Assembly (NCBI GenBank): GCA_944375795.1
Contig: CALWAU010000126.1
Coordinates: 1 to 36,958 of the forward strand
DNA from: an uncultured Clostridia bacterium
GTDB taxonomy: Bacteria > Bacillota > Clostridia > Christensenellales > Borkfalkiaceae
Reading direction: 5' to 3'
DNA: 36,958 nt
The translations under genes were made by a program, and so were the position numbers. The notes under the pieces are model-generated. The model saw only the letters and a program-made list of their open reading frames with translations. It was not told the DNA's origin and ran no database searches. Positions 15,725 to 30,303 of the stretch are shown in pieces; position 1 is the stretch's first letter; each line of letters opens with the position of its first letter.

Positions 15725-15845
15725 GAACGACGGCCTTTTCTCCTTTGGCCGCCGCACTCCAAAGTATAACCCGTCCGGCTCCCCCGCGTAAAGAGAGCCG
15801 GACGGCGCAGCAGTTCCGCGGGGCCGTCCCGCGGATTTTCCGTCG

Positions 15846-15893: not shown

Positions 15894-16379
15894 TCAATCG
15901 GGCGACGCCTGGGCCGCATACAGTTCGTACAGCCCCGCATACAGTTCCCCGAGATAATTTTTTGCCGTTTCGTCCGCGCGAAAGGCCTGGAACCGCCCGG
16001 ACGCGTCCGCATACGCGCCGTCGTAATAGGCCTTGACGACGGCGAACCGCTCCTCGAACGTCAGCGAATAGTCGACGTCGTAGGGCGGCGGCTCCCCGGA
16101 CTCGGGACGGGACGCGAAGCGCAGATAAAAGAGCAGGCCGTCGCGGATATTGTCCACTTCCTGCTGGCAGCTCGCTTCCAACGCGCCGCACACCTCCTCC
16201 CAGACGGGAGAACGGAACACCCCCGCCTCCAGAAGCCTGTACTTCTCCCGCCGCTTGTCCTCCTCCAGCTGTTCGACGAGCCGGTTTTTCCGCAGCTGCG
16301 CCTCCTCGATCTCCAAAATCTGTTCCTCGGTCAAGAGGGCAAACTGCTCGTCCGTATAGGAAATAATGTCGATGGTCAA
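15894..16379 (-). CDS. Last gene of the phage-head cassette, unknown function
   Basis: 161 aa from a TTG at 16379 that has GGAGGTG 8 nt upstream. A GTG at 16451 overlapping the previous stop (GTGA) is the alternative and would add 24 residues. The N-terminal third is a charged helix (TEEQILEIEEAQLRKNRL...LEEDKRREKYR), and the rest is mixed with many aromatic residues. It is transcribed with the structural genes and sits where a connector, stopper or tail gene would be expected, but no family was recognised. Confidence 0.7.
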   Translation of the reverse strand: MTIDIISYTDEQFALLTEEQILEIEEAQLRKNRLVEQLEEDKRREKYRLLEAGVFRSPVWEEVCGALEASCQQEVDNIRDGLLFYLRFASRPESGEPPPYDVDYSLTFEERFAVVKAYYDGAYADASGRFQAFRADETAKNYLGELYAGLYELYAAQASPD

Positions 16380-16447
16380 ATGCTTTTCACCTCCCTTTTC
16401 GTCCGCGCGGCCCTGCCGCGCAAAAGTCCCCCGCGTCCCCGTCGCGC

Positions 16448-17788
16448 TCACGCATACGTCAGAAACACCAGCTCCGCGCCCGTCACCGCGGAGGAGGCGG
16501 AAGCGAGGTACAGCCGCAGGGAAAACCGCTCCCCGGAGAGCAGCGGGAAAACGGCCGCCTCCCCGTTTTCAAAGGTCAGAGAAAAGCTCCTTTTCTCCCC
16601 TCCGTTTTCCGTTTCGACGCGGCAGCCGCCCTCCCCCGTCAGGCGGAGAACTTTCCAGAATTTGCGTCCGCTCACCCCGAAATCGGTATTTTCCGCCGAA
16701 AATTCGTATTCCTCTCCCTGCGGCAGACTTCCGCCCGCCCCTATGCCGCGCACCGCGCCGTTCGCCGCACACAGCAGTCCGAGCTCCGTCTGCGAAAGCG
16801 CGTCGGCGGGCGCCGAAGAAAAATAGGCGCTCTCCGCGGCGCCGTCGAGCACGAGCAGCCTTTTCGTCCCCGAGCGGTCGGTATAAGAAACCGTGCGCCT
16901 GCCGTCCGCCCTTCCGAATCGCACCTCCCCGCTCCCGGGCAGGACGGGAACGTCGCGGCAAATTCTCTCCGCGCTTTTTCCGTCGAAGGCATACAGCCCG
17001 TCCGAAGCGAGAAAGAGTATTTTTTCCCCGGACGCCCCGTCGGACACGCCGAGGATCTCCCCGCCCTCATAGCCGAGCATGGCGACGGAGAAATCCCGCG
17101 CCGCCCCGCCCGCCTCCAACCGCAGGATCGCGCGGCGGCGAAAGAGAAACACGGCTTCCCCCAGCGGCTGCATGCTCACGATTTCTCCGTCGGCGGAGGG
17201 CAGACGGACATATCCGCCCTCGTCGGCGCTGTCCGAAAAATCGGATGCGTCCAGGGGCGCGCTGTAATGCACGGCGTCGGCAGAGGCTACAAACAGCCGC
17301 TCGTGAAAGGCGCAGGCGACGGCGGAAGTCTCGTCCGACGCCAACGTAAAATCTTCCCCGTCGTACAGCCACACCCCGTCCCCCGCGCAAAACGCGACGC
17401 GGGGCGAGCCGTCTGCGGCGTACACGTTCACCGCCTTCACGGGCAGCGTAAAAAAATGATTGAGATAAACAAATTCCCCTTCCGTCCCGTCGAAAGCGTA
17501 TATGCGTCCCTGGGCGTTGATCGCCAGAAGGCGCGTCTCTCCGCCCGCGTCCGCGGGAAAGGCGTGAAAGGAATCGGGCAGAAAGACCAGCGACGAATAA
17601 TCGTCGGCGATCTCCGCCGTCAGCCCCAGCCCGGGGCGGATGCTGCCGTCCGAGCAATCGCAGTTTGCGCCGCCCGAGGCGGAAAGGCAGCCCTCGCCGC
17701 CGCCGAACGTCGAAAACCGCTTGTACTTCACCCGCTTTTCCCGCCGCTCGGGTGCGGAAAAGCCCCTTCCCGAAAGCAGCGCGCCCAT
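16448..17788 (-). CDS. Phage-cassette beta-propeller-like protein
   Basis: 446 aa from ATG 17788, which has AGGAGG 8 nt upstream and overlaps the connector stop (TGATG), so translation is coupled. Repeated blade-like units of about 40 residues are visible (LLAINAQGRIYAFDG, VWLYDGEDFTL, LFLASDGLYAFDG, LLVLDG), which suggests a beta-propeller over about 60-310 followed by a beta-rich C-terminal domain. Its position after the connector resembles head-completion or tail-stabilising proteins of P22-type podoviruses, but that role is inferred from order only. Confidence 0.7.
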   Translation of the reverse strand: MGALLSGRGFSAPERREKRVKYKRFSTFGGGEGCLSASGGANCDCSDGSIRPGLGLTAEIADDYSSLVFLPDSFHAFPADAGGETRLLAINAQGRIYAFDGTEGEFVYLNHFFTLPVKAVNVYAADGSPRVAFCAGDGVWLYDGEDFTLASDETSAVACAFHERLFVASADAVHYSAPLDASDFSDSADEGGYVRLPSADGEIVSMQPLGEAVFLFRRRAILRLEAGGAARDFSVAMLGYEGGEILGVSDGASGEKILFLASDGLYAFDGKSAERICRDVPVLPGSGEVRFGRADGRRTVSYTDRSGTKRLLVLDGAAESAYFSSAPADALSQTELGLLCAANGAVRGIGAGGSLPQGEEYEFSAENTDFGVSGRKFWKVLRLTGEGGCRVETENGGEKRSFSLTFENGEAAVFPLLSGERFSLRLYLASASSAVTGAELVFLTYA

Positions 17789-18339
17789 CAGGCCCACCTC
17801 CTCGACCGCAGCACCCGCGCGGGGCGGGCGCGATACGCCGCGGCGAGCGCGGCGCGGTATTTTTCGTCCCAGACCTCCGATTCCTCGTACAGCCCGCAGG
17901 CGAGGCAGTATTCCGCCGCCATGCCGAAGGCGAAAAGGCGGGGAGACGCCTGCAGGACAAAATCGGAATCGTCCTCCGTCCCCTTTTCTTCGGGCGTATA
18001 CGTATAGGCGACGCGCACCTTTCCGGGCGACGTTTTCAGGTGGTCGGGAAAGAGCCGGAAGGGGATTTTATTTCCCCATTCGTCCCGCACGCCCAAAATG
18101 CGCACGGCCGCCCTTTGCAGGGCGGAATAGGCGATCGCGCCCGTCTCCGATTCCGCTTCGTCCTCCGCATACAGGGGCAGATAATCGAGGGCCAGCTCGT
18201 TTTCGACGAGGTTGAAACAGCGCAGCAGCACCTCCGTCTCCTTCTTTCCCGTTTCCCCTTCCTCCTCGAAATATTCCCGCACCCGGTTCCCGCAGCCGAG
18301 CTCGTCCGCCGCGAGCAAAATTGTTTCCTTGACCGTCAT
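17788..18339 (-). CDS. Head-tail connector / DNA-stabilising protein (P22 gp4-like position)
   Basis: 183 aa, mostly helical, beginning TVKETILLAADELGCGNRV and containing ALDYLPLYAEDE and a Tyr/Ala-rich C-terminal helix. Length (P22 gp4 is about 166 aa), all-helical look and location directly after the coat gene support a head-completion adaptor. The family call rests on context more than on a unique motif. A GGAGG lies upstream of the ATG. Confidence 0.6.
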   Translation of the reverse strand: MTVKETILLAADELGCGNRVREYFEEEGETGKKETEVLLRCFNLVENELALDYLPLYAEDEAESETGAIAYSALQRAAVRILGVRDEWGNKIPFRLFPDHLKTSPGKVRVAYTYTPEEKGTEDDSDFVLQASPRLFAFGMAAEYCLACGLYEESEVWDEKYRAALAAAYRARPARVLRSRRWA

Positions 18340-18403
18340 TTTGCGACCTTGACCTCCTTTTCCGAATCGTTTGCATAATTTTGCCGTTCTCCGAAGCCCT
18401 TTC

Positions 18404-18429
18404 GGGCGGGGCGCCCCCGCGCCCCGCCC
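18404..18429 (-). other. Strong hairpin after the coat gene
   Basis: Perfect 10-bp GC stem GGGCGGGGCG / CGCCCCGCCC with a 6-nt loop, 7 nt after the coat stop codon and with no T-run on either side. Position and form suit mRNA 3'-end protection that raises coat expression over downstream genes. Confidence 0.6.
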
Positions 18430-18435
18430 ACGGCG

Positions 18436-19611
18436 TCAGCTCTCGGTGATCCCCGTCAGCACGCCCTGTCCGAAGGGCCTGCTGCACAGGAGCTCGGCAT
18501 ACTTGACGAGCGTCGCGGTATAGACGGGCTTCCCGGCGACCTGCCTGAGGATCTTCCCGTCCTCTCCCTCCAGCCACTGCCAATCGCACAGCTGGTGGAG
18601 GCAGAAATCGTCCGTATTGAGCAGATACATCGTCCCCGAGGGGCAGAAGCGGTCGGCGACGACGGGGATGCCGCCGAAGCTGAGCGCCTTATAGCCGCCC
18701 AGAATCTCCATCGAGGGGATGTAGGTCTTATACTGATTGAAATAGGACGCCAGGGCCCGTTTCACCCCCCACGAGCAGACGATGAAATTGATTTTGCTGC
18801 CCGAGTTTTCCTCTATCTTGTCGATGGCGAGCTGAATCGTGTCCTCGTCAATCGTGCCCACCTTCGATTCGGAATACGGGGTCATCCAGGGATGGGAAGC
18901 GCGGGTGACGCCGTAGAGGGTCGCCGAATCGGAAAAGAGCGCGCCCAGCCCCGTGATTTCGCAATCGCGGGAATTTTGCAGCGTGATGTAGCTGTTCGCG
19001 GGCACGTTGGTGGCGGTAAGCGCGGCGCCGCCCACCGTAATCGTCTTTTCGGCGCGGTCCACCGCCGTTATCACTCTGCCGGTCGCCCCCGTGATCACGG
19101 CGCCCGCGGAGGTATAGAAATCGACGATCATGCCCTCCGCCACGGCGGCCACGCTGTCCACGGTTATCACGTTGTTTTCCCCCGTCGAGGAGACGGTGCA
19201 CAGCTTCCCGGTGCCGTCCCCGTACAACATTCTGCCGAAGTTGAAGGAAGAACTCCGCACGAGCGCCTCCATTTCGTCGTTGAGGAGATTGACAAACGCC
19301 CCCTCGTTGTTGGCGGAAGCGCGGATCGCCTTATCCGAGATTTCCAGCGTGCCGTAAAGATTTTTCAGCGTGCTGACGAACTGCACGTAATTGTTCCCGC
19401 CCGACGCGGGGAGATTTCCCGTCTCCGTGCCCGCGCCGATGCCGCCGTTGATGCCGTACCGCACCAGTTTCCGCACGTCCTTTCCCCAGACGTCCGCCGT
19501 CGTTTTTTTGATCTGCGAAAGCAGGGGATTCGCCCTCATGTCGAGCGCCTCGGTCACCGCGTCCAGATAATAGGATTTGAGGGCGTTGTCCGCCGTCTGC
19601 ATCGTTACCAT
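18436..19611 (-). CDS. Phage major capsid (coat) protein
   Basis: 391 aa, placed between scaffold and connector as expected for a coat protein. The N-terminal arm reads NALKSYYLDAVTEALDMRANPLL; a region like the HK97-fold E-loop and spine helix follows (EISDKAIRASANNEGAFVNLLNDEMEALV). An inserted beta-rich domain at about 145-205 looks like the decoration insertions of many phage coats. The C-terminal part has the P-domain-like VKRALASYFNQYKTYIPSMEILGGYKALSFGGIPVVADRF. AAAGGAG precedes the ATG. The frame is intact. Confidence 0.85.
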   Translation of the reverse strand: MVTMQTADNALKSYYLDAVTEALDMRANPLLSQIKKTTADVWGKDVRKLVRYGINGGIGAGTETGNLPASGGNNYVQFVSTLKNLYGTLEISDKAIRASANNEGAFVNLLNDEMEALVRSSSFNFGRMLYGDGTGKLCTVSSTGENNVITVDSVAAVAEGMIVDFYTSAGAVITGATGRVITAVDRAEKTITVGGAALTATNVPANSYITLQNSRDCEITGLGALFSDSATLYGVTRASHPWMTPYSESKVGTIDEDTIQLAIDKIEENSGSKINFIVCSWGVKRALASYFNQYKTYIPSMEILGGYKALSFGGIPVVADRFCPSGTMYLLNTDDFCLHQLCDWQWLEGEDGKILRQVAGKPVYTATLVKYAELLCSRPFGQGVLTGITES

Positions 19612-19632
19612 ACTTTTTTCTCCTTTTTTCGG

Positions 19633-20289
19633 TTATTGCGCCTGTCCGCCCTTTTTGAAATACAGAAGCGCCATATTTCCCGCCTCGTCTATCGAGCGGG
19701 CCTTGCGCGGAGGGGCGGCAAGCGTCCCCGAACCGCCGCGCACCAACGGCGCCTCCGGTGCCTTGAGGGAGGAGAGATAATCGCCGATGATTTTCAGCCG
19801 CACCCGCTCCGAACCGCTCGCGGCCCGGTAGAGCGCCTCATCCGACAATCCCCCGTTCGGGACCCCCTCCGTCCCCGTCCCGGCGTCCGGTCCGCCCTTC
19901 GGCGTCCCTTCCGCCCCTTCTCTGCGGGGAAAATTTTCCGAAGGCAAAGCGGGTCCCCGCCCGTTCCGGTTTTCGGGCGCGGCGTCCGCGCGGGGAGCGG
20001 ACGGGCTTTCCGAACCGACCCCGCCCTTTCTCTCCTCCTCTCCGTCCTCGGGCTTTTCCGCCTCCGAACGGAGCGGCTGCGCTTCCGCCGCGGGATTTTC
20101 CGCCCTCTTTTCCAGCTCTCTGAGGCGTTGGCTGCGACGGGTAAATTCCGCCTCCAGAGCGCTGTAAGCCTCCGCGAGGGCGTCCACCGAACGGAATTTT
20201 CCCGGCACCGCCGAACCTTTTTTCTCTTCCGCCTCCGCGGCCTGTCCCGCGCCGGGCGCCGTGCGGACGTTCTCCTCATTTCCTTTCAT
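19633..20289 (-). CDS. Capsid scaffolding protein
   Basis: 218 aa, low-complexity and highly charged. The conserved-looking GKFRSVDALAEAYSALEAEF and a short coiled coil (about 30-65) are followed by a disordered Pro/Gly/Glu-rich middle (about 65-145) and a short C-terminal helix. This layout and the position between portal and coat are typical of scaffolds. AAGGAGG lies before the ATG. Confidence 0.8.
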   Translation of the reverse strand: MKGNEENVRTAPGAGQAAEAEEKKGSAVPGKFRSVDALAEAYSALEAEFTRRSQRLRELEKRAENPAAEAQPLRSEAEKPEDGEEERKGGVGSESPSAPRADAAPENRNGRGPALPSENFPRREGAEGTPKGGPDAGTGTEGVPNGGLSDEALYRAASGSERVRLKIIGDYLSSLKAPEAPLVRGGSGTLAAPPRKARSIDEAGNMALLYFKKGGQAQ

Positions 20290-20326
20290 ATTTTCTGTCC
20301 TCCTTTTTCTTTTTTACGCAAATTTT

Positions 20327-22222
20327 TCAATTCGTCTCTGCCCTGCCCCCGTCGTTCGTTTCGCCGCACAGTTTGCGGTGCGCCGCGACGTGGGCGAGTA
20401 TCCGCCCCTTGTAGCCGGGCGATATCCCCTTGACTTCCTCCGCCAGCAGAAAGCGGATATGTTCCCCGACGTGCAGCGCGCAGTCGTCGTACTCGTCCGG
20501 GCGCACCTCCCCTTCCGCCAGGCGCAGATTTTCCCCCGCCGCTTTGGCGAGATGCAGGGAAGAGATATCCTTGGCGTTTTCGTACGACCCGAAGCCGAAG
20601 GCGTCGAGGATACGCAGCCTGTTTTCCTCCGAAAGCTTCCCCTCCCCGTCCGAGAGCAGACCCGCGTCGAACAGCCGCAGGAGGGTCTCCCGCTTCTGCT
20701 CGGGCGTCGCGGCCTCCTCCGTCTCGAACACGATGTCGTCGGCGGAGAGTTCGGAGGCGTTGAAATAGATCACCTCCACCCGCTTGTTTTCGCCCGCCGC
20801 CGCCAGCAGCCGGGCATTGCCCGCAAATTGGCGGTACAGGCGGATGATCTGCCGGCCCGTCTCCTTTCGGGCGAGGGAAATGCTGTCCGTCGTCGCCGAA
20901 AGCCTGTAATCGTCCTGCGAGAGGAGCAGCTGCAGCCCCGTGGCGCTGGTCACCCGCGAAGGGGTGGAATTCTGGGAGAGGTCGCTCACGCCGCTGATGA
21001 GGGAAAATTCCTCCTCCAATCTGTCCTCTTCCTCCTCGAAACTCTCGGGAATCTGCCCGCAGTCCAGCATTTCGGGCGGTTTTCCGCCCTGCCTGTAAAC
21101 GAGCACCCTCCCGGGCGACAGTCCCTCCTCGGCCAGCTCGTCCACGTCCACCGAGCCGTCCTCCACCGTCACCACGCCCATAGACAGGCGGTTGAGAAAC
21201 TCGTGTTTGCGGTTGCGCACCGCGTTGTACGCCCGCTGCACGGGGATCAGCCTGTCTACGATGCTGCACCCGAAAAAGGCGCCGGGCAGCCGCAGGCAGT
21301 CCTGCCGGACGAAGGGAAAATCCCTCTGTCCCTTATCGCCGTTCCGATAGGGCAGCGGCCCCTCGTAGAGCAGTTCACCCCCCGCGGCGATCTCCAGCTT
21401 CCCTTCGGGAAATTCCGCCGTCGGGCGGGTATACCGCTCGATGAGGATCTCCGAATCCCGCACCGATATCCGGCTGCCGCCCGGATCGCGCGCGGGAATT
21501 TTCCAGGCGGACGGCTCGCTGTATCCCGCGGGCGCCAACCCGGCGATCTCCCGCCCCCGCAGGGCGACACCGAACTTTTCCGCGATCGCGGACACGGGCA
21601 CCGCGCGGGCGTGGATGAGGCTGCGCACGCCGCCGAGGTCCTCCGCCCCGAGCGAATCGGGAAAGATTTCAAAGGGAGGCACCGCCTCGACGGATATCTC
21701 GCCCTCGTACACGGGGGCGCCGTTTTCGTCTACGGCCACCTGCCGTCCCCCGTTCTCGTCCCATAAAATCTTGTAAAACGCGCTTCCGCACACCTCCGAC
21801 CAGAGGGTCGCCCGCGCGGCGATCTCGTCCAGCCCTATCCGCTCGCGCACGCCGGCGAGGACGGCGGTGGCCAGCCTCGCCGCGCGCAGGTCCCCCTCCT
21901 CGTCCGAGAAGGCGCGCACGTGCAGAGCGGGCCGCATCCTCGTCAGCTTGGCGATGCGCGAATCGACCATGGGCGCGATGTGGTTGAACGCCCGGCGCGA
22001 CTGCCAGTAAAAGCGCTTGTCCTCCTCTTCCGTCTCCCCGTCGGGGGAGATGTCGCAATACTGATTGCCGCTCAGAAAATTCATGTTGAGCAGCCAGCCG
22101 TTTTCCAGGCTCCGCCTCTCCTCCCGCCGCCGCTCGAAATCCGCCCGGATCTCGTCGGCCAGCCGCCTTTTCCGCTTCTCCTCCGATTCCCGTTTCCGGG
22201 CCTCGTTATCCCTTTCCTGCAT
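20327..22222 (-). CDS. Phage portal protein (P22 type)
   Basis: 631 aa portal, the ring through which DNA enters the head. N-terminal helix rich in Arg/Glu, then FLSGNQYCDI, the conserved RRAFNHIAPMVDSRIAKLTRMRP, GSAFYKILWD, a beta-rich wing, the NAVRNRKHEFLNRLSMG stem region and a C-terminal helical crown. It is somewhat shorter than P22 gp1 (725 aa). The P22-portal call rests on this motif order and on the pairing with terminase and scaffold. GGGAGG is 11 nt before the ATG. Confidence 0.85.
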   Translation of the reverse strand: MQERDNEARKRESEEKRKRRLADEIRADFERRREERRSLENGWLLNMNFLSGNQYCDISPDGETEEEDKRFYWQSRRAFNHIAPMVDSRIAKLTRMRPALHVRAFSDEEGDLRAARLATAVLAGVRERIGLDEIAARATLWSEVCGSAFYKILWDENGGRQVAVDENGAPVYEGEISVEAVPPFEIFPDSLGAEDLGGVRSLIHARAVPVSAIAEKFGVALRGREIAGLAPAGYSEPSAWKIPARDPGGSRISVRDSEILIERYTRPTAEFPEGKLEIAAGGELLYEGPLPYRNGDKGQRDFPFVRQDCLRLPGAFFGCSIVDRLIPVQRAYNAVRNRKHEFLNRLSMGVVTVEDGSVDVDELAEEGLSPGRVLVYRQGGKPPEMLDCGQIPESFEEEEDRLEEEFSLISGVSDLSQNSTPSRVTSATGLQLLLSQDDYRLSATTDSISLARKETGRQIIRLYRQFAGNARLLAAAGENKRVEVIYFNASELSADDIVFETEEAATPEQKRETLLRLFDAGLLSDGEGKLSEENRLRILDAFGFGSYENAKDISSLHLAKAAGENLRLAEGEVRPDEYDDCALHVGEHIRFLLAEEVKGISPGYKGRILAHVAAHRKLCGETNDGGRAETN

Positions 22223-22284
22223 CTTCCTTTCTGCCTCCCGTTTATTTTGCGCGGAGCGTCTCCGCCGCCGCGGCTTTTATGTCT

Positions 22285-22659
22285 TTATGTCTTTTCTTTT
22301 TTTATAACCCGCCGTTTCGCCGCCCGCCGCGCGGGCTTTTTGGCCCCGCCCTGCCCAGCCCGCTTTTCCCCGGCGCCTTCCTCCTCCCGCAGCAGCCCCA
22401 AAAGCCGCCTGCGCTCCGCCTCCAACTCCTCGTCCGTAAGGGAGGCGCAGTCGTCCTCCTCCCCGCTCATCAGCAGCTGCACCGCCTTCAGGTCGGGCGG
22501 GATATCCTTTCTCGTCTCCCGCCGCTTGGTCAGGCGCAGTTCACCGTCCGCCATCGCGTACTCCTCCGTCACCTCCTCCACCCGACACCCCAGCGCCACC
22601 TTCATCAGCGCGTCCCCTATCTTTTTCCTCTCCCTTTTCTTTTCCGTATTTTTCTCCAT
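22285..22659 (-). CDS. Small packaging-associated protein (possible small terminase)
   Basis: 124 aa from ATG 22659 (GAGGAGG, 8-nt spacing). The N-terminal half holds IGDALMKVALGCRVEEVTEEYAM...ETRKDIPPDLKAVQLLM, a pattern met beside terminases in clostridial phages; the C-terminus is a basic, Ala/Lys-rich tail. In most phages the small terminase precedes the large one, so finding it after TerL is unusual. The small-terminase role is a guess from location, size and charge. Confidence 0.6.
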   Translation of the reverse strand: MEKNTEKKRERKKIGDALMKVALGCRVEEVTEEYAMADGELRLTKRRETRKDIPPDLKAVQLLMSGEEDDCASLTDEELEAERRRLLGLLREEEGAGEKRAGQGGAKKPARRAAKRRVIKKEKT

Positions 22660-22717
22660 TTCCGTCTCCTCCTCTTTGCGGGCCCGCCCGGAAAACGGCT
22701 TTCCCGGACTTTGCCCC

Positions 22718-24157
22718 TCAATCGACGCCGCCGCGGCGGGCGGCCACAAGTTTCCGCCACTTTTTCTCCTTGTCCCTCTGCACCGCCGTCTTTTCCGGCT
22801 CGGGCGGCAGCTTTCTCGGGCGGGACATCAGGTAGTATCTCAATTCGTCGAGAGCGTGGTCGTCCGTCTTTCTCGGCGAATCCCCGCTTCCCCAGAAATA
22901 CCCCTTCAATTCCCGGATGAGGTTGACGCAGCCGCTGAAAATGTACAGATTGGGCAGACCGTTGCGCGTATTCAGATAGCTTTTGACCCGCGCGATCCCC
23001 GCGAACAAGTCCTTGTCCACGTCGGGGTTGACGAGGATATCCCGCTCGTAAAAGAGCTCGCACACGCTTTTGACCCCGGACAGGGTATGCTGCTTCGCGG
23101 CGCTGTCTATCAGCGCGCACACCCGCCCCTTTGCGTCCCGCTTCCAGCCGAGCATATCGGAAATGCGCCTGATTTCCGAAGCGTGGTAATCGATATCCCT
23201 GCCCGCGGCAAAATGCTCGTACACAGCATATACGTTGTCGTCGTAATCCACCGCGTACCAATGCGCGGACAGCGGATTGTTCAGTCCCGGGTCTATGGAA
23301 ATATTGTCCTGCCACTCCGCGGGTACGGGGAAGGGCTCGATGACGTGCACCCGTTCGTCGAACTCGGGATACACCAGCCCCTCGGAGGCGGAAAACCTGC
23401 CGTACCGCCGCGACTGCAATTCCCGCTCGTCCAGGCACCGCCCGAGCAGCTCCGTCTCCTCCGCGGGCAGATAGGGGTTGTCCGACCACTCCATGAACTC
23501 GTACCACACCTCGGGGTCTTTGCGGCGGTTGAGATAGATTTCGTCGTAGACGAAGGTGAGCCCCTTCAGCGGCGTCATCGTTCCGAAGATATCTCCCTGC
23601 CGGTCGAGGACGCGCATGCGGCACTCCTCGTAAATTTCGCGGGGCGGCTCCTCGTCGAACCAGACGAAATCGAGCGAGGTGCCCTGAAACTTCTCCCGGC
23701 CCTGGTCGCAGCTTTTGAACCCGATGACCGAAATTCCGCCGAAGGCATTTTTCACGCGGATAAAATCGATGACGCCGTTTTCGGGGAAATCCTTCCGCCC
23801 GCTCGTCATCACGATTTCCTCGATGCGGTCGCGGCGCAGATAGCGCAAAATTTTCTTCTGCGCTACGTCCCGCTGTACCTGCGCGGACAGGGAGACCACC
23901 CAGCCTACCGCGTCCGGACGGTTTTTCCGATAGGGATGGGTCCCCAGCGCCAGCCAGACGCACTCCGCGGCCCCGCATTCCGTCTTGCCCGTGCGGTTGC
24001 CGCCGAACACCCAGCGGTTGCGCTTCCGGCAGCGGTGAAAGGCCAGCTGCTTCTCGTGCTTTTTCTCCCCCGTGTTGTACGCCGCGAGCGCGTCGCCCGA
24101 ACGGCGCTTTTCCTGCTCCGCCTCTATCCGCAGAAGCCTTTCTACAATCTCTCTCAT
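22718..24157 (-). CDS. terL: Phage terminase large subunit
   Basis: 479 aa DNA-packaging motor and nuclease. ATPase domain: Walker A GGNRTGKT (52-59), Walker B DFVWFDEE (163-170), coupling region TMTPLKGLTF near 193-202. RNase-H-like nuclease domain with the expected acidic residues D289 (ISIDPGLNN), D351 (CALIDSA) and D432/D433 (KTDDHALDELR). All key residues look intact, so the enzyme is probably functional. GAGGG sits just before the ATG. First gene of the head cassette. Confidence 0.93.
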   Translation of the reverse strand: MREIVERLLRIEAEQEKRRSGDALAAYNTGEKKHEKQLAFHRCRKRNRWVFGGNRTGKTECGAAECVWLALGTHPYRKNRPDAVGWVVSLSAQVQRDVAQKKILRYLRRDRIEEIVMTSGRKDFPENGVIDFIRVKNAFGGISVIGFKSCDQGREKFQGTSLDFVWFDEEPPREIYEECRMRVLDRQGDIFGTMTPLKGLTFVYDEIYLNRRKDPEVWYEFMEWSDNPYLPAEETELLGRCLDERELQSRRYGRFSASEGLVYPEFDERVHVIEPFPVPAEWQDNISIDPGLNNPLSAHWYAVDYDDNVYAVYEHFAAGRDIDYHASEIRRISDMLGWKRDAKGRVCALIDSAAKQHTLSGVKSVCELFYERDILVNPDVDKDLFAGIARVKSYLNTRNGLPNLYIFSGCVNLIRELKGYFWGSGDSPRKTDDHALDELRYYLMSRPRKLPPEPEKTAVQRDKEKKWRKLVAARRGGVD

Positions 24158-24198
24158 AATCCCTCACAAACCGTCAAAAATGTATGTCCCCGCCCCTT

Positions 24199-24204
24199 TA
24201 TAAT
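24199..24204 (+). promoter_or_regulatory. -10 box immediately before the SH3-TM gene
   Basis: TATAAT ends 7 nt before the ATG at 24212, so a transcript from it would start at or near the ATG (leaderless). No convincing -35 is seen. The surrounding TTTATAATAAA is nearly symmetrical and could also serve the divergent terminase operon. Confidence 0.4.
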
Positions 24205-24211
24205 AAAGAGC

Positions 24212-24916
24212 ATGAAAAAGTTTCTTCTCTCGGCGCTCCTGCCGTTTTTATTTTTCCTCCGATGTACCCTGCCCGCCCCGCTGCCCGCCGCCGCGGAGGA
24301 CGCGGGCTACGCCTGCATACGGGATACCGACGTCTACCTCTATGCCGAGGAAAACGACCGCAGCGGCCTTTTCACCCTTCCCTATACCTATTACGTGAAG
24401 GTGCTCGCGACGGGAATCGACTACTGCTATGTGGAGTACCTTTCCGACGGCCCCAACACGAGACGGATCACGGGCTACTGCAAGACCTCCGAGCTCACCT
24501 TTGTCGACTATGTGCCCGAACGCCCCTATCTGTACTATACTTTCGACGTGACCTATTACATAGAGGGAAGCTCCCCCGCCCTCTCGGACGACGATTTCCT
24601 CACCGCCATCACCGTCACCTGCGCCTATTACGGGGAATATCGGGTGGGGTCGGAAGTATACTGCTACGTCCTCCGGGAAGGGACGTTCGGATATATTCCC
24701 AGGCCCGACGGCCTCGAATACGAACTCAACGGGGAATACGACAGTCACATGTCCGATGGCTCGGACACGGGCGCGGGCAATTTCGGCGGCGGGGAATCGG
24801 AATCGATGTCCCCCGTGCAGATCGCCCTCCTCGTCCTCCTGTGCATTCTGGTGCCCGTGATCGCCGCACTCATTCTCCGCCCGCCCAAGAAACCGCCCTA
24901 CGAAACGGACGAATAG
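24212..24916 (+). CDS. Secreted SH3-like protein with C-terminal membrane anchor
   Basis: 234 aa. Signal peptide (about 1-29, MKKFLLSALLPFLFFL...AAAEDA), an extracellular Tyr-rich region with two SH3-like modules (DTDVYLYAEENDRSGLFTL... and the YIEGSSPAL... part), a Gly/Ser linker with NFGG, then one transmembrane helix (about 202-224) and a short basic tail. Same architecture as the C-terminus of the protein encoded at 26662-29007. It lies between the terminase and the late-regulator gene, on the opposite strand. Likely surface-exposed, binding cell wall or another ligand. The only ribosome-site candidate, AAAGAG, is too close to the ATG. Confidence 0.8.
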   Translation: MKKFLLSALLPFLFFLRCTLPAPLPAAAEDAGYACIRDTDVYLYAEENDRSGLFTLPYTYYVKVLATGIDYCYVEYLSDGPNTRRITGYCKTSELTFVDYVPERPYLYYTFDVTYYIEGSSPALSDDDFLTAITVTCAYYGEYRVGSEVYCYVLREGTFGYIPRPDGLEYELNGEYDSHMSDGSDTGAGNFGGGESESMSPVQIALLVLLCILVPVIAALILRPPKKPPYETDE

Positions 24917-24926
24917 CCCCTCGCCT

Positions 24927-24960
24927 TTCTCCCGCCCTTCCCCGGGGCGGGAGAATTTTT
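24927..24960. terminator. Terminator between convergent SH3-TM and regulator genes
   Basis: Stem TTCTCCCGCCC / GGGCGGGAGAA with a 7-nt loop, followed on plus by TTTTTG. Confidence 0.8.
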
Positions 24961-24961
24961 G

Positions 24962-25531
24962 TCAGGCGGAGCCGCCCTTTTCCCCGGCCGTCCCGCGTCC
25001 CCGCGCAGACGGACATCCTCGGGCCGGCTTCGCGTCCGCAAGCCACTCCGCAAGCCACGCCTGTTCCCTGCGCCCCGCCGCGCATTCCCGGCCGGCGCCG
25101 ACGCGGCGGCAGACGGACATCATCCAGGCAAAGCCCCCGTATTCGCGGAAAAACGCCTCCTCCGTCAGCCCCGCGGCCGCAAACAGGGCGGCCATTTTCC
25201 CCAGCAGCTTTTCCTGCCTGCGATAATAGCTGCGCTCGCTCCGCGGCCGCAATCCGACGGCGGATACCTGCTTCCTTCGCCCGAAATACCGCATTTCCAG
25301 CAAAAACCTCTCCTCGCCGGACAGCTTTTTCAATATCCCGTCCACCTTCTCCTTCAAATTTTCTATCGCGCCCTTTCTGAGAATTTCCTCCGCCAGATAT
25401 TCCGCCTCCCGCTCCGCGGTCCGCCGATAGGAGCCCAGCGCCCGATTTCTGATATGTTCGCCGTAGTCCTCCGCAATCGCCGCCAATTTCGGATATATGT
25501 ACAGCACCGCCTTTACGTAATCCTCCCTCAC
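24962..25531 (-). CDS. Phage late-regulator-like protein (ArpU/RinA/sigma-like)
   Basis: 189 aa from a GTG at 25531 with AAAGGA upstream. The helical N-terminus is followed by LSGEERFLLEMRYFGRR and ERSYYRRQEKLLGKMAALF, a sigma-region-4/ArpU-type helix-turn-helix plan used by regulators that sit just upstream of terminase genes in phages of Bacillota. The last 60 residues, Arg/Ala/Gly-rich, look unstructured. It likely activates the structural operon; it is separated from terL by the plus-strand SH3-TM gene. Confidence 0.6.
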   Translation of the reverse strand: MREDYVKAVLYIYPKLAAIAEDYGEHIRNRALGSYRRTAEREAEYLAEEILRKGAIENLKEKVDGILKKLSGEERFLLEMRYFGRRKQVSAVGLRPRSERSYYRRQEKLLGKMAALFAAAGLTEEAFFREYGGFAWMMSVCRRVGAGRECAAGRREQAWLAEWLADAKPARGCPSARGRGTAGEKGGSA

Positions 25532-25616: not shown

Positions 25617-25787
25617 TGACTCCTTCCGCCTTTCGACGCCTTCCGTCCTTCGACGCCTTCCGCCCTCCGACGACTTCCGTCCTCCGACGCCTTTCGCCCT
25701 CCGACGATTTTCGTCCTCCGACGACTTCCGTCCTCCGATGACTTCCGTCCTCCGATGACTTCCGTTCCTCGGCGCTTTTCCGTCCGC
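25617..25787. repeat. 17-bp minisatellite, about ten copies
   Basis: Nine head-to-tail units of exactly 17 bp from 25617 to 25769, plus a degenerate tenth after a 1-base insertion. A typical unit is CGACGACTTCCGTCCTC; variation is limited to a few positions. Because 17 is not a multiple of 3, all three minus-strand frames are open and each would read the same 17-residue peptide repeat. It starts 86 bp upstream of the late-regulator start codon. It may be an iteron-like or operator array, or a neutral minisatellite. Confidence 0.9.
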
Positions 25788-26137
25788 CCGTATCCCGAGG
25801 CACCCGCCTTTCGGGAACGCACCCATATTATCGCACATCTTTGCCGTTTGTCCAGCTCTTTCTGCCAACTTTTTCCAGAAATGCGAACATTTGTTTGCAT
25901 TTTATCAGGATTAAACCTGTAAAACTTGACAAATATACGCCTGTTTTCAAAAAAGGCCGTACGCCGAAAGCCCCGTGCGCAAAGAAGGCATGCCTTGAAG
26001 GCTCTCGGTATAAAGAGGGTCGGATTATCCTTTCAGGCCCCGCCCTTTCCGAGGCTCCTCGTGTAAAGGAAAGCGGATTGCGAAACCGCTTCTCCGAGGC
26101 CCCTTGTGTAAAGGGGATGCGGAGCTGCTTTTCCCCT

Positions 26138-26188
26138 GGCTCCTTTGTGCAAAGGGAGCTGGCTGCCGCAGGCAGACTGAGGGATTGT
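26138..26188 (+). repeat. Box-stem-box repeat element, copy 1
   Basis: GGCTCCTTTGTGCAAAGG box, then stem CTGCC-gca-GGCAG, then CTGAGGGATTGT. The boxes are identical to copy 2 but the stem sequence differs. Confidence 0.7.
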
Positions 26189-26531
26189 TTTGCCCATTCA
26201 CCATCAAAACGCGGAGATACAAGTTCGCGAAGCCCGCGGATTTTGCGCGGCGAGTTTACTCAGACGTAAATGAGCAAGCAAAAACGCAAGGGCGACAATG
26301 TATTGCGCAGTAGATACGCATTTCCCTCAATAGAGTAACAGAGCAGCCTGAGGGATTGTCTTGCGGCTGTCGCCGTCTGACAGCAAAGCGGTAAGGGCGC
26401 AAACCTTCGGTTTGCTTTTATGGGGGGTCTTTTGCGGGCTCCGCCCTGCACCCGCAAGGGACATCGTCCCTTGACCCTTTCCCGAGGCTCCTTTGTGTAA
26501 AGGAAAGCAGATTGCGAAACCGCTTCTCCGA

Positions 26532-26582
26532 GGCTCCTTTGTGCAAAGGGAGCTGTCATGCGGAGCATGACTGAGGGATTGT
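26532..26582 (+). repeat. Box-stem-box repeat element, copy 2
   Basis: Same outer boxes as copy 1 (23-nt left box identical, right box TGAGGGATTGT) with a different stem, GTCATGC-gga-GCATGAC. A lone right box also occurs at 26348-26359. Confidence 0.7.
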
Positions 26583-26661: not shown

Positions 26662-29007
26662 ATGAAGCGTTTTTTGGCGGCAATTTTATGCATATGCGCG
26701 GCGGCGGCCCCCTTCTTTCCGGAGGGCGGAGCATTTCCGCGCGCCGTGGAAGCGACGGTACGGGCGGACGAAACGGCGACGGCGGACGGCACGGGCGCGG
26801 ACGGGCTGATTTTGCCCTCCTCCTACGAGCAGTATCTTCCCCTCTCCTCCCCTTCGGACATTGCGGTGACGGACGGGTACATGGCGATTTCGGACGGAAA
26901 CGTCATCTATCTGTACGACCGCGCCGCCGATTCGTACAGCCGTTACGAACATACGGCCAACGAGGACTCCGCGACCAACACCATCGAGGAGCTGCAGTTT
27001 GCCGAGGACGGGAACCTCTATTTCCGCGACGTTTCCCTGTTCCTTTACCGCATGGACTACTCGCAGCCGGCGCTCGAATCGGAAAACACGGGCCTCGCCT
27101 GCAACGCCTTTGAAATTTATGCGGACGCCGTCTATTACGTCACCACCTCGCAGCTTCGGAAAACGACGCTGAACGAGCTTGACCCCGCAAAGGGCGAAAC
27201 CATCGTTTCCAACATTTCTTCCCGTCCCGCGCTGGCGCTGGACAACGGCGTACTGTATTATACCGAAGGCGGAAAGATCCTCTGTCGGACGGACGATATT
27301 TCCTTTTCCCGCCCGCTGACGCAGAACGAAACGGTCGTCTCCATGGCCGTATACAGCGGCATTCTTTACTACACGGACACGTCAGCGACGATGCACGTAT
27401 ACGACCTCACCGCCGAAAACGCCATCGCATCCTACGAAGGGGGCTATTCCTCCCTTTCCGTCTGGGATGGATATATTTACGCGGTGGGCGAAAACTGCAT
27501 ACGGCAATATTCGCCCGCGGCGGGGGCGTTCACCGATTATGAAATCGGCGCTTCTTCCTCGTCGGAAAACCGCCTTTCGGGCGCTTCCTCCCTCTGCCTC
27601 GCGGGCGAATTGCTGCTGACGGCGGACGCGGGGAACAGCCGCGTTTCCGTCTACGACGCCTCGGCGGGCACGGTCCGGACGGTGAGCGTCCCCGCGGGGG
27701 CGGACCTTCTCGCCTCGGACGGCGAAACGATGGCGGCGGCGGGCGGGACCTCCGTCTCCCTTTACGACCTCGCTTCGCCCGAAACGCCGTCGTATACCTT
27801 TTCCGATTTTCAGAGCGCCGTCGTCGGCGCGGCGTGCGTGTACGGCGTATACTATTTCGTTACCTCCAACAATTATTTCTACCGCATCTCCCCGTCGGAG
27901 GAGGGATGGACGGCGGAAAGCTCGCCCAAACCCGCCCTTTCGTACACGGCGCGGCTGCTCGCCGCGGACGCATACGGCGATTTGTACGTCGCCTTTTCGG
28001 ACGGAAGCGTCTGCCGCTATACGGAATCGGAATTTACAGACGCCGCCGCGGCGGGGGAAAAAGTCTGCAACGTGCCCGTGCTCGCCGAGCAGATCGCCGT
28101 CGATTACGCCCGCACCGTCTACGCCCTTTCGGACAATCGCCTGTACATATGTGCGGGCGAACAGGCGAGCCAAAGCTATCCGCTGGGAAAATCGCTGGTC
28201 TGGTCGCAGACGGAGGACACGCCCGCGGTTTCCTTCGCGTTCGGCATCGAATCGGAGGCAGTCTATCTGCTGTACGAGGGCGATTTCATCATCCGCACTT
28301 TCGATATCCCCCTGCCCACCGTGCGCACCATTGCCGTGGACGGCGCGGACGAGCGCATTTTCGACGGCGCAAGCGCCGATTTTTCGGTCATACAGACGGC
28401 GGAAAATTCCCTGTTCGTCTCCTTCGAGCTGGAATCGCTCGACGGCGCGGAATATTTCCCCTATCTGGGCTACGAGCGCAGGACGGAAAGCGTCACGGCC
28501 CTGAAATTGGAGGAGACGGAGCTGTATGACATCCTCGCCGTGTTCGACGAGGAAAACAGGCAGTACACCGCCGCCCTCGTCCTGAAAAGCCATTGCGAAG
28601 AGCTGCCCGAGGAGGAATACCTCAAAGAGGCGGAGGGCTTCGAGGACGGCAAAGGCTACCTCACCAACGCCGTCAGCCTGTACAAATATCCCTACCTCAC
28701 CGAACTGCTCACGGCGGGAAGCCTGCCGAAAAACGCGGAGGTGACGGTGCTCGGCCAAATCGACACGCCCGACTATCGGTATTATCGCATCGCCTGGACG
28801 GACGGGGAAGGCAACGAACGGACGGGCTTTATCCCGGTCGCTTACGTGACGGCGTTCGACGGCTCGCCCGTGCCCGCGGAGCAGGCCAATTTCGGCGGCA
28901 CGGGCGCGGATACCGATTCCGTCTGGCGGCTCGCCTTTCTCCTTCTCGGCTGCGCGTCCGTCTGCGTCCTGGTCGATTTTCTCATCATCAAGCGCAAGGA
29001 AAAATAA
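26662..29007 (+). CDS. Secreted beta-propeller / SH3-like protein with C-terminal membrane anchor
   Basis: 781 aa. Signal peptide (MKRFLAAILCICAAAAPFF, cleavage probably within 20-36). Most of the ectodomain (about 55-560) consists of repeated units with D-G-x-x-Y-x-x-x and VYDL/LYDL patterns, as in propellers of the WD/YVTN type. A beta-rich linker follows, then an SH3-like module near 670-740 (NAVSLYKYPYL...GFIPVAYVTAF), a linker with NFGG and one transmembrane helix (about 755-775) with a basic tail KRKEK. It shares its C-terminal architecture with the 234 aa protein encoded at 24212. A TTG 6 codons upstream is rejected because it lies inside the promoter. Function unknown; surface sensor or wall-binding protein is plausible. 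Confidence 0.8.
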   Translation: MKRFLAAILCICAAAAPFFPEGGAFPRAVEATVRADETATADGTGADGLILPSSYEQYLPLSSPSDIAVTDGYMAISDGNVIYLYDRAADSYSRYEHTANEDSATNTIEELQFAEDGNLYFRDVSLFLYRMDYSQPALESENTGLACNAFEIYADAVYYVTTSQLRKTTLNELDPAKGETIVSNISSRPALALDNGVLYYTEGGKILCRTDDISFSRPLTQNETVVSMAVYSGILYYTDTSATMHVYDLTAENAIASYEGGYSSLSVWDGYIYAVGENCIRQYSPAAGAFTDYEIGASSSSENRLSGASSLCLAGELLLTADAGNSRVSVYDASAGTVRTVSVPAGADLLASDGETMAAAGGTSVSLYDLASPETPSYTFSDFQSAVVGAACVYGVYYFVTSNNYFYRISPSEEGWTAESSPKPALSYTARLLAADAYGDLYVAFSDGSVCRYTESEFTDAAAAGEKVCNVPVLAEQIAVDYARTVYALSDNRLYICAGEQASQSYPLGKSLVWSQTEDTPAVSFAFGIESEAVYLLYEGDFIIRTFDIPLPTVRTIAVDGADERIFDGASADFSVIQTAENSLFVSFELESLDGAEYFPYLGYERRTESVTALKLEETELYDILAVFDEENRQYTAALVLKSHCEELPEEEYLKEAEGFEDGKGYLTNAVSLYKYPYLTELLTAGSLPKNAEVTVLGQIDTPDYRYYRIAWTDGEGNERTGFIPVAYVTAFDGSPVPAEQANFGGTGADTDSVWRLAFLLLGCASVCVLVDFLIIKRKEK

Positions 29008-29084: not shown

Positions 29085-29501
29085 TCAAATCCCTGCCCCT
29101 TCCTGTTTCTCATTTTCCGATTTTTCTTCCGCCTGCCTTTCCCCTGTCCCATTCTCTTTTTTCAAAGATTTTTCCGCTTCCGCTATTCTTTTATCGAGCA
29201 TCGCAATCTTCCGTTTCATATTCCTGCGGCGAAGAATAAGGGCAACGCAGCCGCCCGAAAACAACAATGCACTGATTAAAAGAAATACCGCGGCTCTCGG
29301 CGAATCCAGCGAAGTAATGAAAAAAACAAATGTCGCTATTCCGAGACATCCCGACGAAATGATAGAATATTTTGCATCGAAAAACCAAGTTTCGTATCGA
29401 CCGAGTGCCCTTTCTCTTTCCATACAAAGTTTTCTGTACTCCTCCCCTTCGGCTTCACCCTCTTTCTTTTCTTCTCCTTCAAGGGGATTTTCCGTCTGCA
29501 T
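29085..29501 (-). CDS. Coiled-coil / two-helix membrane protein 1
   Basis: 138 aa. Charged N-terminal helix, two hydrophobic helices (about 46-64 and 69-88), then a basic coiled-coil tail (NMKRKIAMLDKRIAEAEKSLKK). Third gene of a tandem trio with the same plan. Base composition is clearly more AT-rich than the surrounding genome, with many TTT, ATA and AAA codons, which hints at foreign origin or relaxed selection. GGGGA precedes the ATG. No family recognised. Confidence 0.65.
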   Translation of the reverse strand: MQTENPLEGEEKKEGEAEGEEYRKLCMERERALGRYETWFFDAKYSIISSGCLGIATFVFFITSLDSPRAAVFLLISALLFSGGCVALILRRRNMKRKIAMLDKRIAEAEKSLKKENGTGERQAEEKSENEKQEGAGI

Positions 29502-29558
29502 ACTCGTCCCCTTATTTTTTTTGTTATATATATTATTGTTAAAAAATCTATTTATCTT

Positions 29559-29921
29559 TTAATTCTGTGCTTTTTTCAATTTTTCTCGCAGCGTATCGAT
29601 GTCATCCTCCAAACATTCAACCTTATTGCCGATATAATTCCGATAGCAGTAGGAAAAAATCGTCAATACCACGCATAATACAGCAAAGCCGAGACCGCAA
29701 AAGCCCCAAAATGTCGATACCCGAAAAAGCATACATCCGCATATTAGCATCCCTACGGAGAAAATACTATCCGTTACAAGCAAAATTTTTATTTCATATA
29801 GCCTATGATAATATTCCTCCCTCCTGCTCTCCTTTTTCCGCAACTCTTTGCTCAACGTTGCGATTTCGGCACGCTCCTTTTCCCGCGCCTGTACGAGCTG
29901 TTCATATTCTTCCTGATCCAT
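29559..29921 (-). CDS. Coiled-coil / two-helix membrane protein 2
   Basis: 120 aa. N-terminal coiled coil (EEYEQLVQAREKERAEIATL), two hydrophobic helices (about 45-65 and 70-91), then a C-terminal coiled coil (VECLEDDIDTLREKLKKAQ). A well-placed GGAGGG precedes the ATG. It lies 15 nt after the upstream member of the trio, so they share an operon. AT-rich. Function unknown. Confidence 0.7.
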   Translation of the reverse strand: MDQEEYEQLVQAREKERAEIATLSKELRKKESRREEYYHRLYEIKILLVTDSIFSVGMLICGCMLFRVSTFWGFCGLGFAVLCVVLTIFSYCYRNYIGNKVECLEDDIDTLREKLKKAQN

Positions 29922-29936
29922 ATGTCCCTCCGATTC

Positions 29937-30263
29937 TCATGATTCCGTTTCCGGATTGCGGCAATCGCCTATCAACCGGTCTAATTCCCGCTTTTTGTTT
30001 TTTATTTTATTAATGAGCGATTTTGTCACCAGCACAGACGCAACAATCATAAGAATCGCCACGACAAAAATGGCAATGCTTATCGCCATGCCATCTTTCA
30101 ACTGATTCCTGTACGACATATACATCATCCAAACGGAGGCGGGCAGTGCAATTATGATAAAAACCAGGCCTCTCGCCGTATAATGCCTGACGACACCCAA
30201 ATCCATATTCAATTTTTCCAACTCATTCATTTTACAGTCTATTTTTTGTTTATCGTCATTCAT
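29937..30263 (-). CDS. Coiled-coil / two-helix membrane protein 3 (first of the operon)
   Basis: 108 aa from ATG 30263 with GGGGAT/AAGGAA upstream; ATG 30290 would add 9 residues but lies at the predicted transcription start and lacks a ribosome site. Short N-terminal helix (CKMNELEKLNMDLG), two hydrophobic helices (about 33-51 and 61-80), and a basic C-terminal coiled coil (INKIKNKKRELDRLIGD). AT-rich. Preceded by an extended -10 promoter and 11-bp repeats. Confidence 0.65.
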   Translation of the reverse strand: MNDDKQKIDCKMNELEKLNMDLGVVRHYTARGLVFIIIALPASVWMMYMSYRNQLKDGMAISIAIFVVAILMIVASVLVTKSLINKIKNKKRELDRLIGDCRNPETES

Positions 30264-30303
30264 CTTATCCCCGTTCCTTGCGGTTTCCATAATATTTTAC
30301 TTC

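Follow-up and report, generated by a model that had tools for sequence, protein, structure and literature searches.

Gene transfer agents (GTAs) are known from few lineages. RcGTA is siphovirus-like, and short-tailed phages of the P22, SU10 and Pa223 type possess a full-length small terminase (TerS), a tail needle or spikes, ejection proteins and genes for lysis, replication and, in P22, integration. Clostridia make podovirus-like GTA particles (PMC12946183), and the same study reports GTA-like packaging in Christensenellaceae with the gene cluster left unnamed and counts only two Gram-positive GTA-like systems described earlier, PBSX and FpGTA. The latter, FpGTA I and II of Faecalibacterium (Borodovich et al. 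2026, PMC12946183), is by description the closest known system to the locus reported here: both are clostridial and podovirus-like, both form an operon of about 10 kb encoding a TerS with no obvious DNA-binding domain, a large terminase (TerL), portal, scaffold and coat, and both lack replication genes, with FpGTA being near-ubiquitous in its genus. Apart from that study, our literature searches turned up no account of the present cluster in these bacteria.

The window analyzed here, a 36,958-nucleotide stretch from an uncultured Clostridia bacterium, holds a cassette of phage-derived structural and packaging genes that reside in the host chromosome with host genes flanking them. Our preferred reading, which we consider quite probable, is that the cassette is a domesticated, vertically inherited podovirus-type GTA.

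Gene content of the cassette

Profile searches revealed an uninterrupted minus-strand operon at 15894-25531 that encodes TerL, portal, a scaffold-like protein, coat, adaptor, a propeller protein and a last gene (g8), plus an upstream regulator. This agrees with a first-pass annotation of the sequence, which had described an intact eight-gene minus-strand head cassette with a late-regulator-like gene upstream, the latter now matched by phrog_36 and phrog_248. The features of the locus are as follows.

15771-15805, minus strand: strong terminator-like hairpin of the intrinsic type with a 15-bp stem, closing the operon
15894-16379, minus strand: g8, 161-aa helical protein at the operon end with a TTG start (alignment with 16 homologues; ribosome-binding site GGGAGGTG)
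16448-17797, minus strand: tail nozzle, a beta-propeller like P22 gp10 and T7 gp12 (AF2 pLDDT 88.7 and fold matches)
17788-18339, minus strand: head-tail adaptor of the short-tailed phage type (AF2 pLDDT 91.4 and fold matches)
18436-19611, minus strand: major capsid (coat) protein (phrog_14242, E 1e-61; PF17236 at the cut-off)
19633-20289, minus strand: scaffold-like protein (position and composition)
20327-22222, minus strand: portal protein of the P22/SU10 type (PF16510, E 6e-17; PF23899, E 2e-8; phrog_156, E 4e-38)
22285-22659, minus strand: truncated TerS, apparently without the N-terminal DNA-binding region (phrog_309 match at family level)
22718-24157, minus strand: TerL, packaging ATPase/nuclease (PF03237, E 2e-12; phrog_2, E 9e-29)
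24158-24211, no strand assigned: putative 54-bp divergent promoter region common to the TerL operon and F7 (TTTATAATA, -10-like on both strands)
24212-24916, plus strand: F7, secreted 234-aa protein that has SH3-like segments and is anchored to the membrane at its C-terminus (alignment and conserved position)
24962-25531, minus strand: REG, sigma/ArpU-like transcription regulator (phrog_36, E 2e-5; phrog_248, E 1e-4)
26662-29007, plus strand: secprop, secreted beta-propeller and SH3-like protein with a C-terminal membrane anchor (weak NHL/GW/DUF5050 matches)

Host genes bound the cassette on both sides (a glycolysis operon, secG-rnr-smpB and phosphoglucomutase; a phosphate transporter), its GC content is 0.60-0.65 versus 0.55-0.62 in the left flank, and its genes are preceded by good ribosome sites. 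What would mark a temperate prophage, an integrase with att sites and a replication or regulation module, is lacking: integrase, repressor, lysis and replication genes had no match anywhere in the window, and repeats around the cassette were merely short or of low complexity with no convincing att pair, as had been claimed before. A tmRNA or tRNA integration site beside smpB was also considered and rejected, with none located.

Evaluating the packaging genes revealed a TerL that matches profiles of the solved large terminases 5oe8 and 4zni and whose motifs are intact across 14 homologues (Walker A GGNR[ST]GKT, Walker B WFDEEPP, coupling GTMTPLKG and the nuclease acidic residues), such that the ATPase and nuclease residues are retained as first described. 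TerS, which the first inventory had overlooked along with the partner membrane proteins (F7 included), was identified by a family-level profile match in which 22 of 24 family members matched phrog_309 ("terminase small subunit") whereas the window copy alone fell below threshold with no match. The family matches this profile only at positions about 194-279 of 319, and because this corresponds to the C-terminal portion of phage TerS and nothing more, the DNA-binding region appears to be absent. By this alignment the cassette TerS is of the GTA type with its N-terminal DNA-binding domain missing, a loss that has been proposed as a hallmark of such proteins (PMC6854486). A true prophage relative (L273), unlike the cassette, has a full Terminase_2 TerS and DnaB. 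Another candidate for TerS, a minus-strand ORF at 24248-24748, was rejected and is probably spurious, as its relatives resemble antisense translations and it is the plus strand that carries the conserved gene of this gap.

Among the head genes, the scaffold-like gene is kept between portal and coat at about 80 loci and gave only insignificant matches in profile searches against scaffold families, while the coat had no significant relative in a PDB profile search. Genuine phages, Microbacterium phage Shocker among them, encode distant relatives of the head genes (24-31% identity), as does the true prophage L273.

The cassette also encodes a tail. Because a PDB profile search gave no significant relative for the adaptor, its identity was settled by fold, with the best matches of its model being podovirus adaptors (9k09_d, Z 13.6; SU10, Z 11.4; T7 gp11, Z 9.4), and the earlier label of "connector" gives way to that of a short-tailed phage's tail adaptor. 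The propeller protein is indeed a beta-propeller, but one that belongs to the tail and not to the head: over residues about 19-449 its model matches 9nwi_Y (Z 25.1), SU10 (Z 24.4) and P22 gp10 (8eap_D, Z 22.3), its fold relatives thus being the podovirus nozzles of Pa223, SU10 and P22 gp10 at Z 22-25. The first-pass annotation had seen no other phage modules in the window, which holds for integrase, repressor, lysis and replication but was wrong for the tail. The cassette encodes a complete podovirus-type head and short tail. For g8, the start is most likely TTG 16379 and not GTG 16451; candidate roles are a tail plug or an internal protein, and it may correspond to F13, a longer coiled-coil protein of other genera.

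Upstream, REG keeps its position at about 50 loci and is a candidate activator of the cassette. F7 is divergent from TerL, lying antisense between REG and TerL at 52 loci, and both F7 and REG still adjoin TerL in the three split-cassette genomes that were read. As the TerL-F7 gap is also short in most relatives, we infer a divergent promoter in the 54-bp region. Secprop, divergent from REG, is a co-conserved neighbor in the same position at 48 loci, and our guess would be that F7 and secprop are surface partners of the particle system in docking, release or protection.

Distribution, inheritance and selection

The first-pass annotation had suggested looking for the same block in related genomes and computing dN/dS. 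Dozens of relatives have the cassette, mostly at one or another of a small set of fixed positions, with the coat gene found in 86 of 91 host-family genomes (54/57 in the genus and 32/34 in the rest of the family), nearly always in single copy and with no internal stop. Since TerL is present in three of the five genomes that lack coat, 89 of 91 carry cassette genes, a frequency for coat or TerL on a par with that of RNase R (85/91). Outside the host family the distribution is patchy (27 of 60 genomes of the order), and losses exist, with one copy degraded (G062) and two genomes having no cassette (G117 and G082). The open frames noted earlier hold across >110 genomes. All seven core genes were recognized in 31 of the 40 loci fetched and are collinear in 31/31, the downstream neighbors memB-memA-PGM are common to other genera, and no integrase or replication genes were recognized beside the cassette in the relatives read. 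In six genomes of a family with reduced genomes (0.8-1.2 Mb), TerL is 39-104 kb from coat on the same contig with both parts intact.

Comparing a tree of TerL, portal and coat to that of host RNase R across 39 genomes gave a Mantel r of 0.92, and of 22 strong head splits, 14 were common to the RNase R tree and 2 conflicted with it; coat protein distances track host distances weakly (Mantel r 0.30). The cassette is passed down vertically as part of the host chromosome and has been maintained over the long term. Matches in IMG/VR were rejected as free phages and, because most look like fragments of this same cassette, were not counted as virus evidence.

Median dN/dS (7 to 15 close pairs for each gene) was low in every gene: 0.10 for TerL, 0.13 for portal, 0.16 for both coat and adaptor, 0.15 for g8, 0.32 for nozzle and 0.33 for scaffold, with 0.26 for REG, 0.21 for F7 and 0.25 for secprop. 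These values (0.10-0.33) point to purifying selection on all cassette genes, and the genes for the DNA packaging motor, procapsid and short tail read as intact and so constrained. The block in relatives, the low dN/dS and the failure to find modules of a surrounding prophage support the earlier suggestion of domestication with selection for a particle-making function, among whose options a GTA-like particle had been listed first.

Proposed function and alternative explanations

With integrase and replication genes absent and its genes sometimes dispersed, the cassette would be unable to propagate as a phage. The host bacteria probably make GTAs, small DNA-filled heads with a short tail that would carry pieces of the bacterium's own DNA from cell to cell, because nearly all family members keep the cassette, in single copy and from parent to offspring. 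In such cells, REG would switch on the TerL operon in some of the population from the 54-bp divergent promoter, the coat would assemble on the scaffold around the portal, TerL, together with a TerS presumably unable to recognize a specific start site, would package headfuls of random host DNA, and the adaptor and nozzle would complete the particle. The proposal is weakest on release and delivery, since our searches of the host lineage recovered neither a holin nor a receptor-binding protein. Searches for holins (BhlA PF10960 and phrog_297) and a profile search for a receptor-binding protein of the relatives' type gave nothing convincing in the host genome (G000) or most of the genus, the phrog_5302 tail protein was found almost nowhere in the genus, and on these results the idea of a second locus with tail and lysis genes in this lineage was rejected. 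The operon can, however, end in a BhlA-type or phrog_297 holin in other families of the order, and in a receptor-binding-like protein in some other genera.

The same genes could serve a domesticated particle without gene transfer, such as a PBSX-like killing particle, a decoy, or a stress-lysis or DNA-export device, which we judge to be clearly unlikely. PBSX packages host DNA without injecting it (as cited in PMC12946183), purifying selection shows merely that some function is kept, and such a particle would fit the host lineage's lack of any receptor-binding or lysis gene that we could find. However, selection has preserved a whole packaging motor with portal, adaptor and nozzle, and TerL most strongly (dN/dS 0.10), relatives possess receptor-binding-like genes and holins in the same operon, and a contractile tail is lacking.

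An ordinary prophage, or a temperate phage so successful that most strains happen to carry it, would explain the relatives of the head genes in Shocker, other phages and L273, but we give it very little credence given one copy per genome, no integrase, replication or repressor genes, a host-congruent tree, fixed neighbors that are host operons and, in six genomes, a TerL far from the other head genes. Nor did we find tail, lysis or integrase genes that would place the cassette within a larger prophage, a discovery that the first-pass annotation had named as fatal to its reading. Natural loss and degradation in three genomes are what an old prophage decaying without function would leave, yet frames open in >110 genomes, the low median dN/dS and good ribosome sites make so well-kept a remnant highly improbable. 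Equally hard to credit is a satellite or mobile-element capsid cluster, or a DNA-free protein compartment, as might be suggested by a compact cassette with no replication or lysis genes in the window: a satellite would need mobility genes, which are absent, and would not follow the host tree, whereas an encapsulin-like nanocompartment is a shell without a packaging motor and would need none of the terminase, portal, adaptor and nozzle that are conserved here.

Returning to a domesticated GTA, a wider version strikes us as somewhat unlikely, namely that the cassette is the ancient GTA of much of a gut Clostridia order (probably Christensenellales) and the missing source of capsid-packaged Christensenellaceae DNA in human fecal viromes, with F7 and secprop as dedicated surface partners and with temperate phages exploiting it by integrating into the coat gene.

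Comparison with known systems

If the cassette is a GTA, then a single-copy podovirus-type cluster that is family-wide and partly order-wide would make GTA-type gene exchange ancient in a lineage of common gut bacteria. It is a concrete candidate gene set for the Christensenellaceae GTA-like packaging that lacks identified genes, and its intact, split and lost copies form a natural series for asking why bacteria keep GTAs.

RcGTA and the alphaproteobacterial GTAs (Rhodogtaviriformidae) share with the cassette a vertical head-tail cluster, a TerS without a DNA-binding domain and no replication of their own, but the cassette portal, adaptor and nozzle are podovirus-type, with the folds and order seen in P22, SU10, Pa223 and other short-tailed phages. 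PBSX of Bacillus subtilis, a defective phage particle of another Gram-positive, is likewise encoded on the chromosome and takes up host DNA, but it is a phage-tail-like killing particle and the cassette genes are of another phage type. FpGTA, for its part, has a second locus that supplies further structural genes and genes for lysis, of a kind not found in this host, and its putative TerS is upstream of TerL whereas that of the cassette is downstream. Contrary to FpGTA, the cassette is accompanied by a pair of divergently encoded proteins with membrane anchors, and its range covers a family and a large part of the order.

Genes and surroundings of the cassette

The window is one complete contig (C126) within a 2.1 Mb metagenome-assembled genome; among named organisms, those closest to it are Candidatus Scatosoma species (Clostridia). 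The host order, which we take to be GTDB's Christensenellales, and the relationship to the Faecalibacterium gene transfer agent (FpGTA) both lean on named neighbours. One flank of the phage-derived cassette carries phosphoglucomutase (PGM) and two membrane proteins and the other a secreted propeller protein and a phosphate transporter, with gene limits taken from simple ORF calling and alignment.

15894-24157, minus strand: cassette operon, set among host genes
24212-24916, plus strand: F7, filling the gap between the regulator gene and TerL
24962-25531, minus strand: regulator gene, upstream of the cassette operon
26662-29007, plus strand: secprop, divergent from the regulator, secreted and membrane-anchored, conserved in 48 loci

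Profile searches recognised TerL, portal and coat, and structure prediction recast two genes of the first-pass annotation. Its "propeller" (pLDDT 88.7) proves to be the tail nozzle of a podovirus, with Z scores of 25.1 against phage Pa223, 24.4 against SU10 and 22.3 against P22 gp10; its "connector" (pLDDT 91.4) has the fold of a podovirus adaptor, with Z scores of 13.6 against cyanophage A4 and 11.4 against SU10. Judged by these predicted folds, the cassette therefore encodes a head with a short tail, more than the head alone that had been proposed. Also overlooked had been the small gene 3' of TerL, a small terminase (TerS) matching phrog_309 "terminase small subunit" in 22/24 family members, with the matches confined to about positions 194-279 of that profile's 319 (nine members shown in detail). 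The cassette TerS is without the N-terminal region, in which phage TerS carries its helix-turn-helix (PMC6854486); in a real prophage relative (L273), by comparison, TerS is 256 aa long with its Terminase_2 domain complete, and a DnaB helicase is encoded as well.

The other gene missed earlier, F7, is kept antisense at the identical position between regulator and TerL in 52 loci. Its start lies 54 bp from that of TerL, and a -10-like sequence can be read in this interval on either strand. The F7 protein combines a signal peptide with SH3-like segments and an anchor at its C terminus, features that for both F7 and secprop were identified by eye from the sequences, and the two are candidates for a surface role by association.

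Several smaller features surround these genes. The leader between a promoter-like site (25854-25827, minus strand) and the regulator gene holds a 17-bp tandem repeat (8.6 copies, 25623-25770), and near-identical intergenic repeats between regulator and secprop (26061-26188 and 26495-26582; 45 nt at 96%, 51 nt at 84%) are perhaps a small mobile or REP-like repeat. A stretch of lower GC (~0.49) at 29085-30290 encodes a row of three small membrane/coiled-coil proteins that look like paralogues.

Distribution, inheritance and selection

The coat gene, nearly always single-copy, was present in 54/57 genomes of the genus, 32/34 of other genera in the family and 27/60 elsewhere in the order; almost all genomes used are metagenome-assembled. 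Three of the five coat-negative family genomes have TerL, and the housekeeping gene RNase R was found in 85/91 of the same family genomes, a set including many incomplete assemblies. A class-wide profile search of 391 genomes gave 26 matches, 12 of them outside the order, and known phages yielded distant relatives alone (24-31% identity).

Of 40 fetched loci, 31 had a recognisable full set of the seven core genes, collinear in every one of the 31. Across 39 genomes, the TerL, portal and coat tree tracks the host tree, represented by one marker, RNase R (Mantel r 0.92; 0/2000 permutations as high), with 14/22 well-supported splits shared and 2/22 in conflict. Coat distances alone correlate weakly with the host (r 0.30), and the coat topology has as many host-shared splits as that of portal. 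Every cassette gene has a median dN/dS within 0.10-0.33, estimated from 7-15 closely related pairs for each gene; two of these pairs are one genome pair that was fetched twice.

Downstream, memB-memA-PGM adjoins the cassette in the window, genome G031 and members of three other genera; its place is taken by dut-trmB in most other genomes of the genus and by ispG-polC-rimP-nusA in another set; a single move within the genus could explain the first two neighbourhoods. The coat protein diverges unusually far within the genus, with 47-83% identity to the window against 65-71% in some other genera; in some lineages it may have evolved faster or been replaced.

Unusual copies were also seen. Two coat genes stand in tandem in G271 (L277, 8035-10379), TerL and coat each occur twice, at distant sites, in the single-contig genome G122, and L269 (G490) holds a lone scaffold-coat pair amid host genes, with no TerL, portal or tail gene recognised nearby. 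Family f76, from another part of the class (L270-L272, L274, L308-L310), has scaffold, coat, F22, adaptor and nozzle alone clustered among host genes, with TerL on a separate contig adjoining a gp3-like packaging protein and a sigma-70-region-4-like gene; this could represent another cluster that was domesticated independently.

Split cassettes and inserted elements

Six members of a family with reduced genomes (0.8-1.2 Mb; G140, G317, G247, G413, G428 and G445; loci L212, L276, L278-L281, L299-L306) have TerL and coat 39-104 kb apart on the same contig. Both halves are intact, F7 and the regulator still adjoining TerL (read in 3/6 genomes) and the second block running from TerS to nozzle plus two holin genes, an arrangement in which a phage could not easily persist.

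On IMG/VR contigs L042 and L053 (G532, G530) and L051 (G531), a temperate-phage-like element starts within the coat gene 3' end, at one shared position near residue 380, and the sequences at the junctions are related. Inspected by eye, the G530 element encodes a separate set of terminase, portal, coat, tape measure and tail proteins, along with two serine-recombinase-like genes; junction-side cargo varies among the elements, from type I restriction-modification to DNA methyltransferases with other restriction-like genes. No right-hand junction turned up in the G530 remainder (L348-L350) or the parts of G531 and G532 read (L351, L352). The junctions suggest that the coat gene serves phages as an attachment site, and integration there may inactivate it.

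Class assignment and comparison with FpGTA

At the level of its genes, the cassette has an intact motor, procapsid and tail, a TerS minus the DNA-recognition part, vertical inheritance and selection, and by the genomic criteria tested it is probably a gene transfer agent (GTA). The regulator would activate the cassette, host DNA would be packaged non-specifically by headfuls, and particles would be released and delivered; searches of the host lineage for the holins and receptor-binding-like protein of its relatives gave no convincing match. Operons of other genera end in a receptor-binding-like protein, in some loci with a phrog_5302 tail protein too, and those of other families in BhlA and phrog_297 holins.

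FpGTA is a podovirus-like GTA-like element with two loci, 40-nm capsids and about 9 kb of DNA, and GTA-like packaging has also been seen in Christensenellaceae, the gene cluster being unnamed (2026; PMC12946183). The cassette, known from its genes, is likewise podovirus-type, a likeness drawn by description, whereas its TerS lies downstream of TerL and that of FpGTA upstream; it also differs in its spread over a family and part of an order and in its two partner membrane proteins, F7 and secprop. What is new here would be a podovirus-type GTA variant with TerS after TerL, family-wide reach and two membrane partners.
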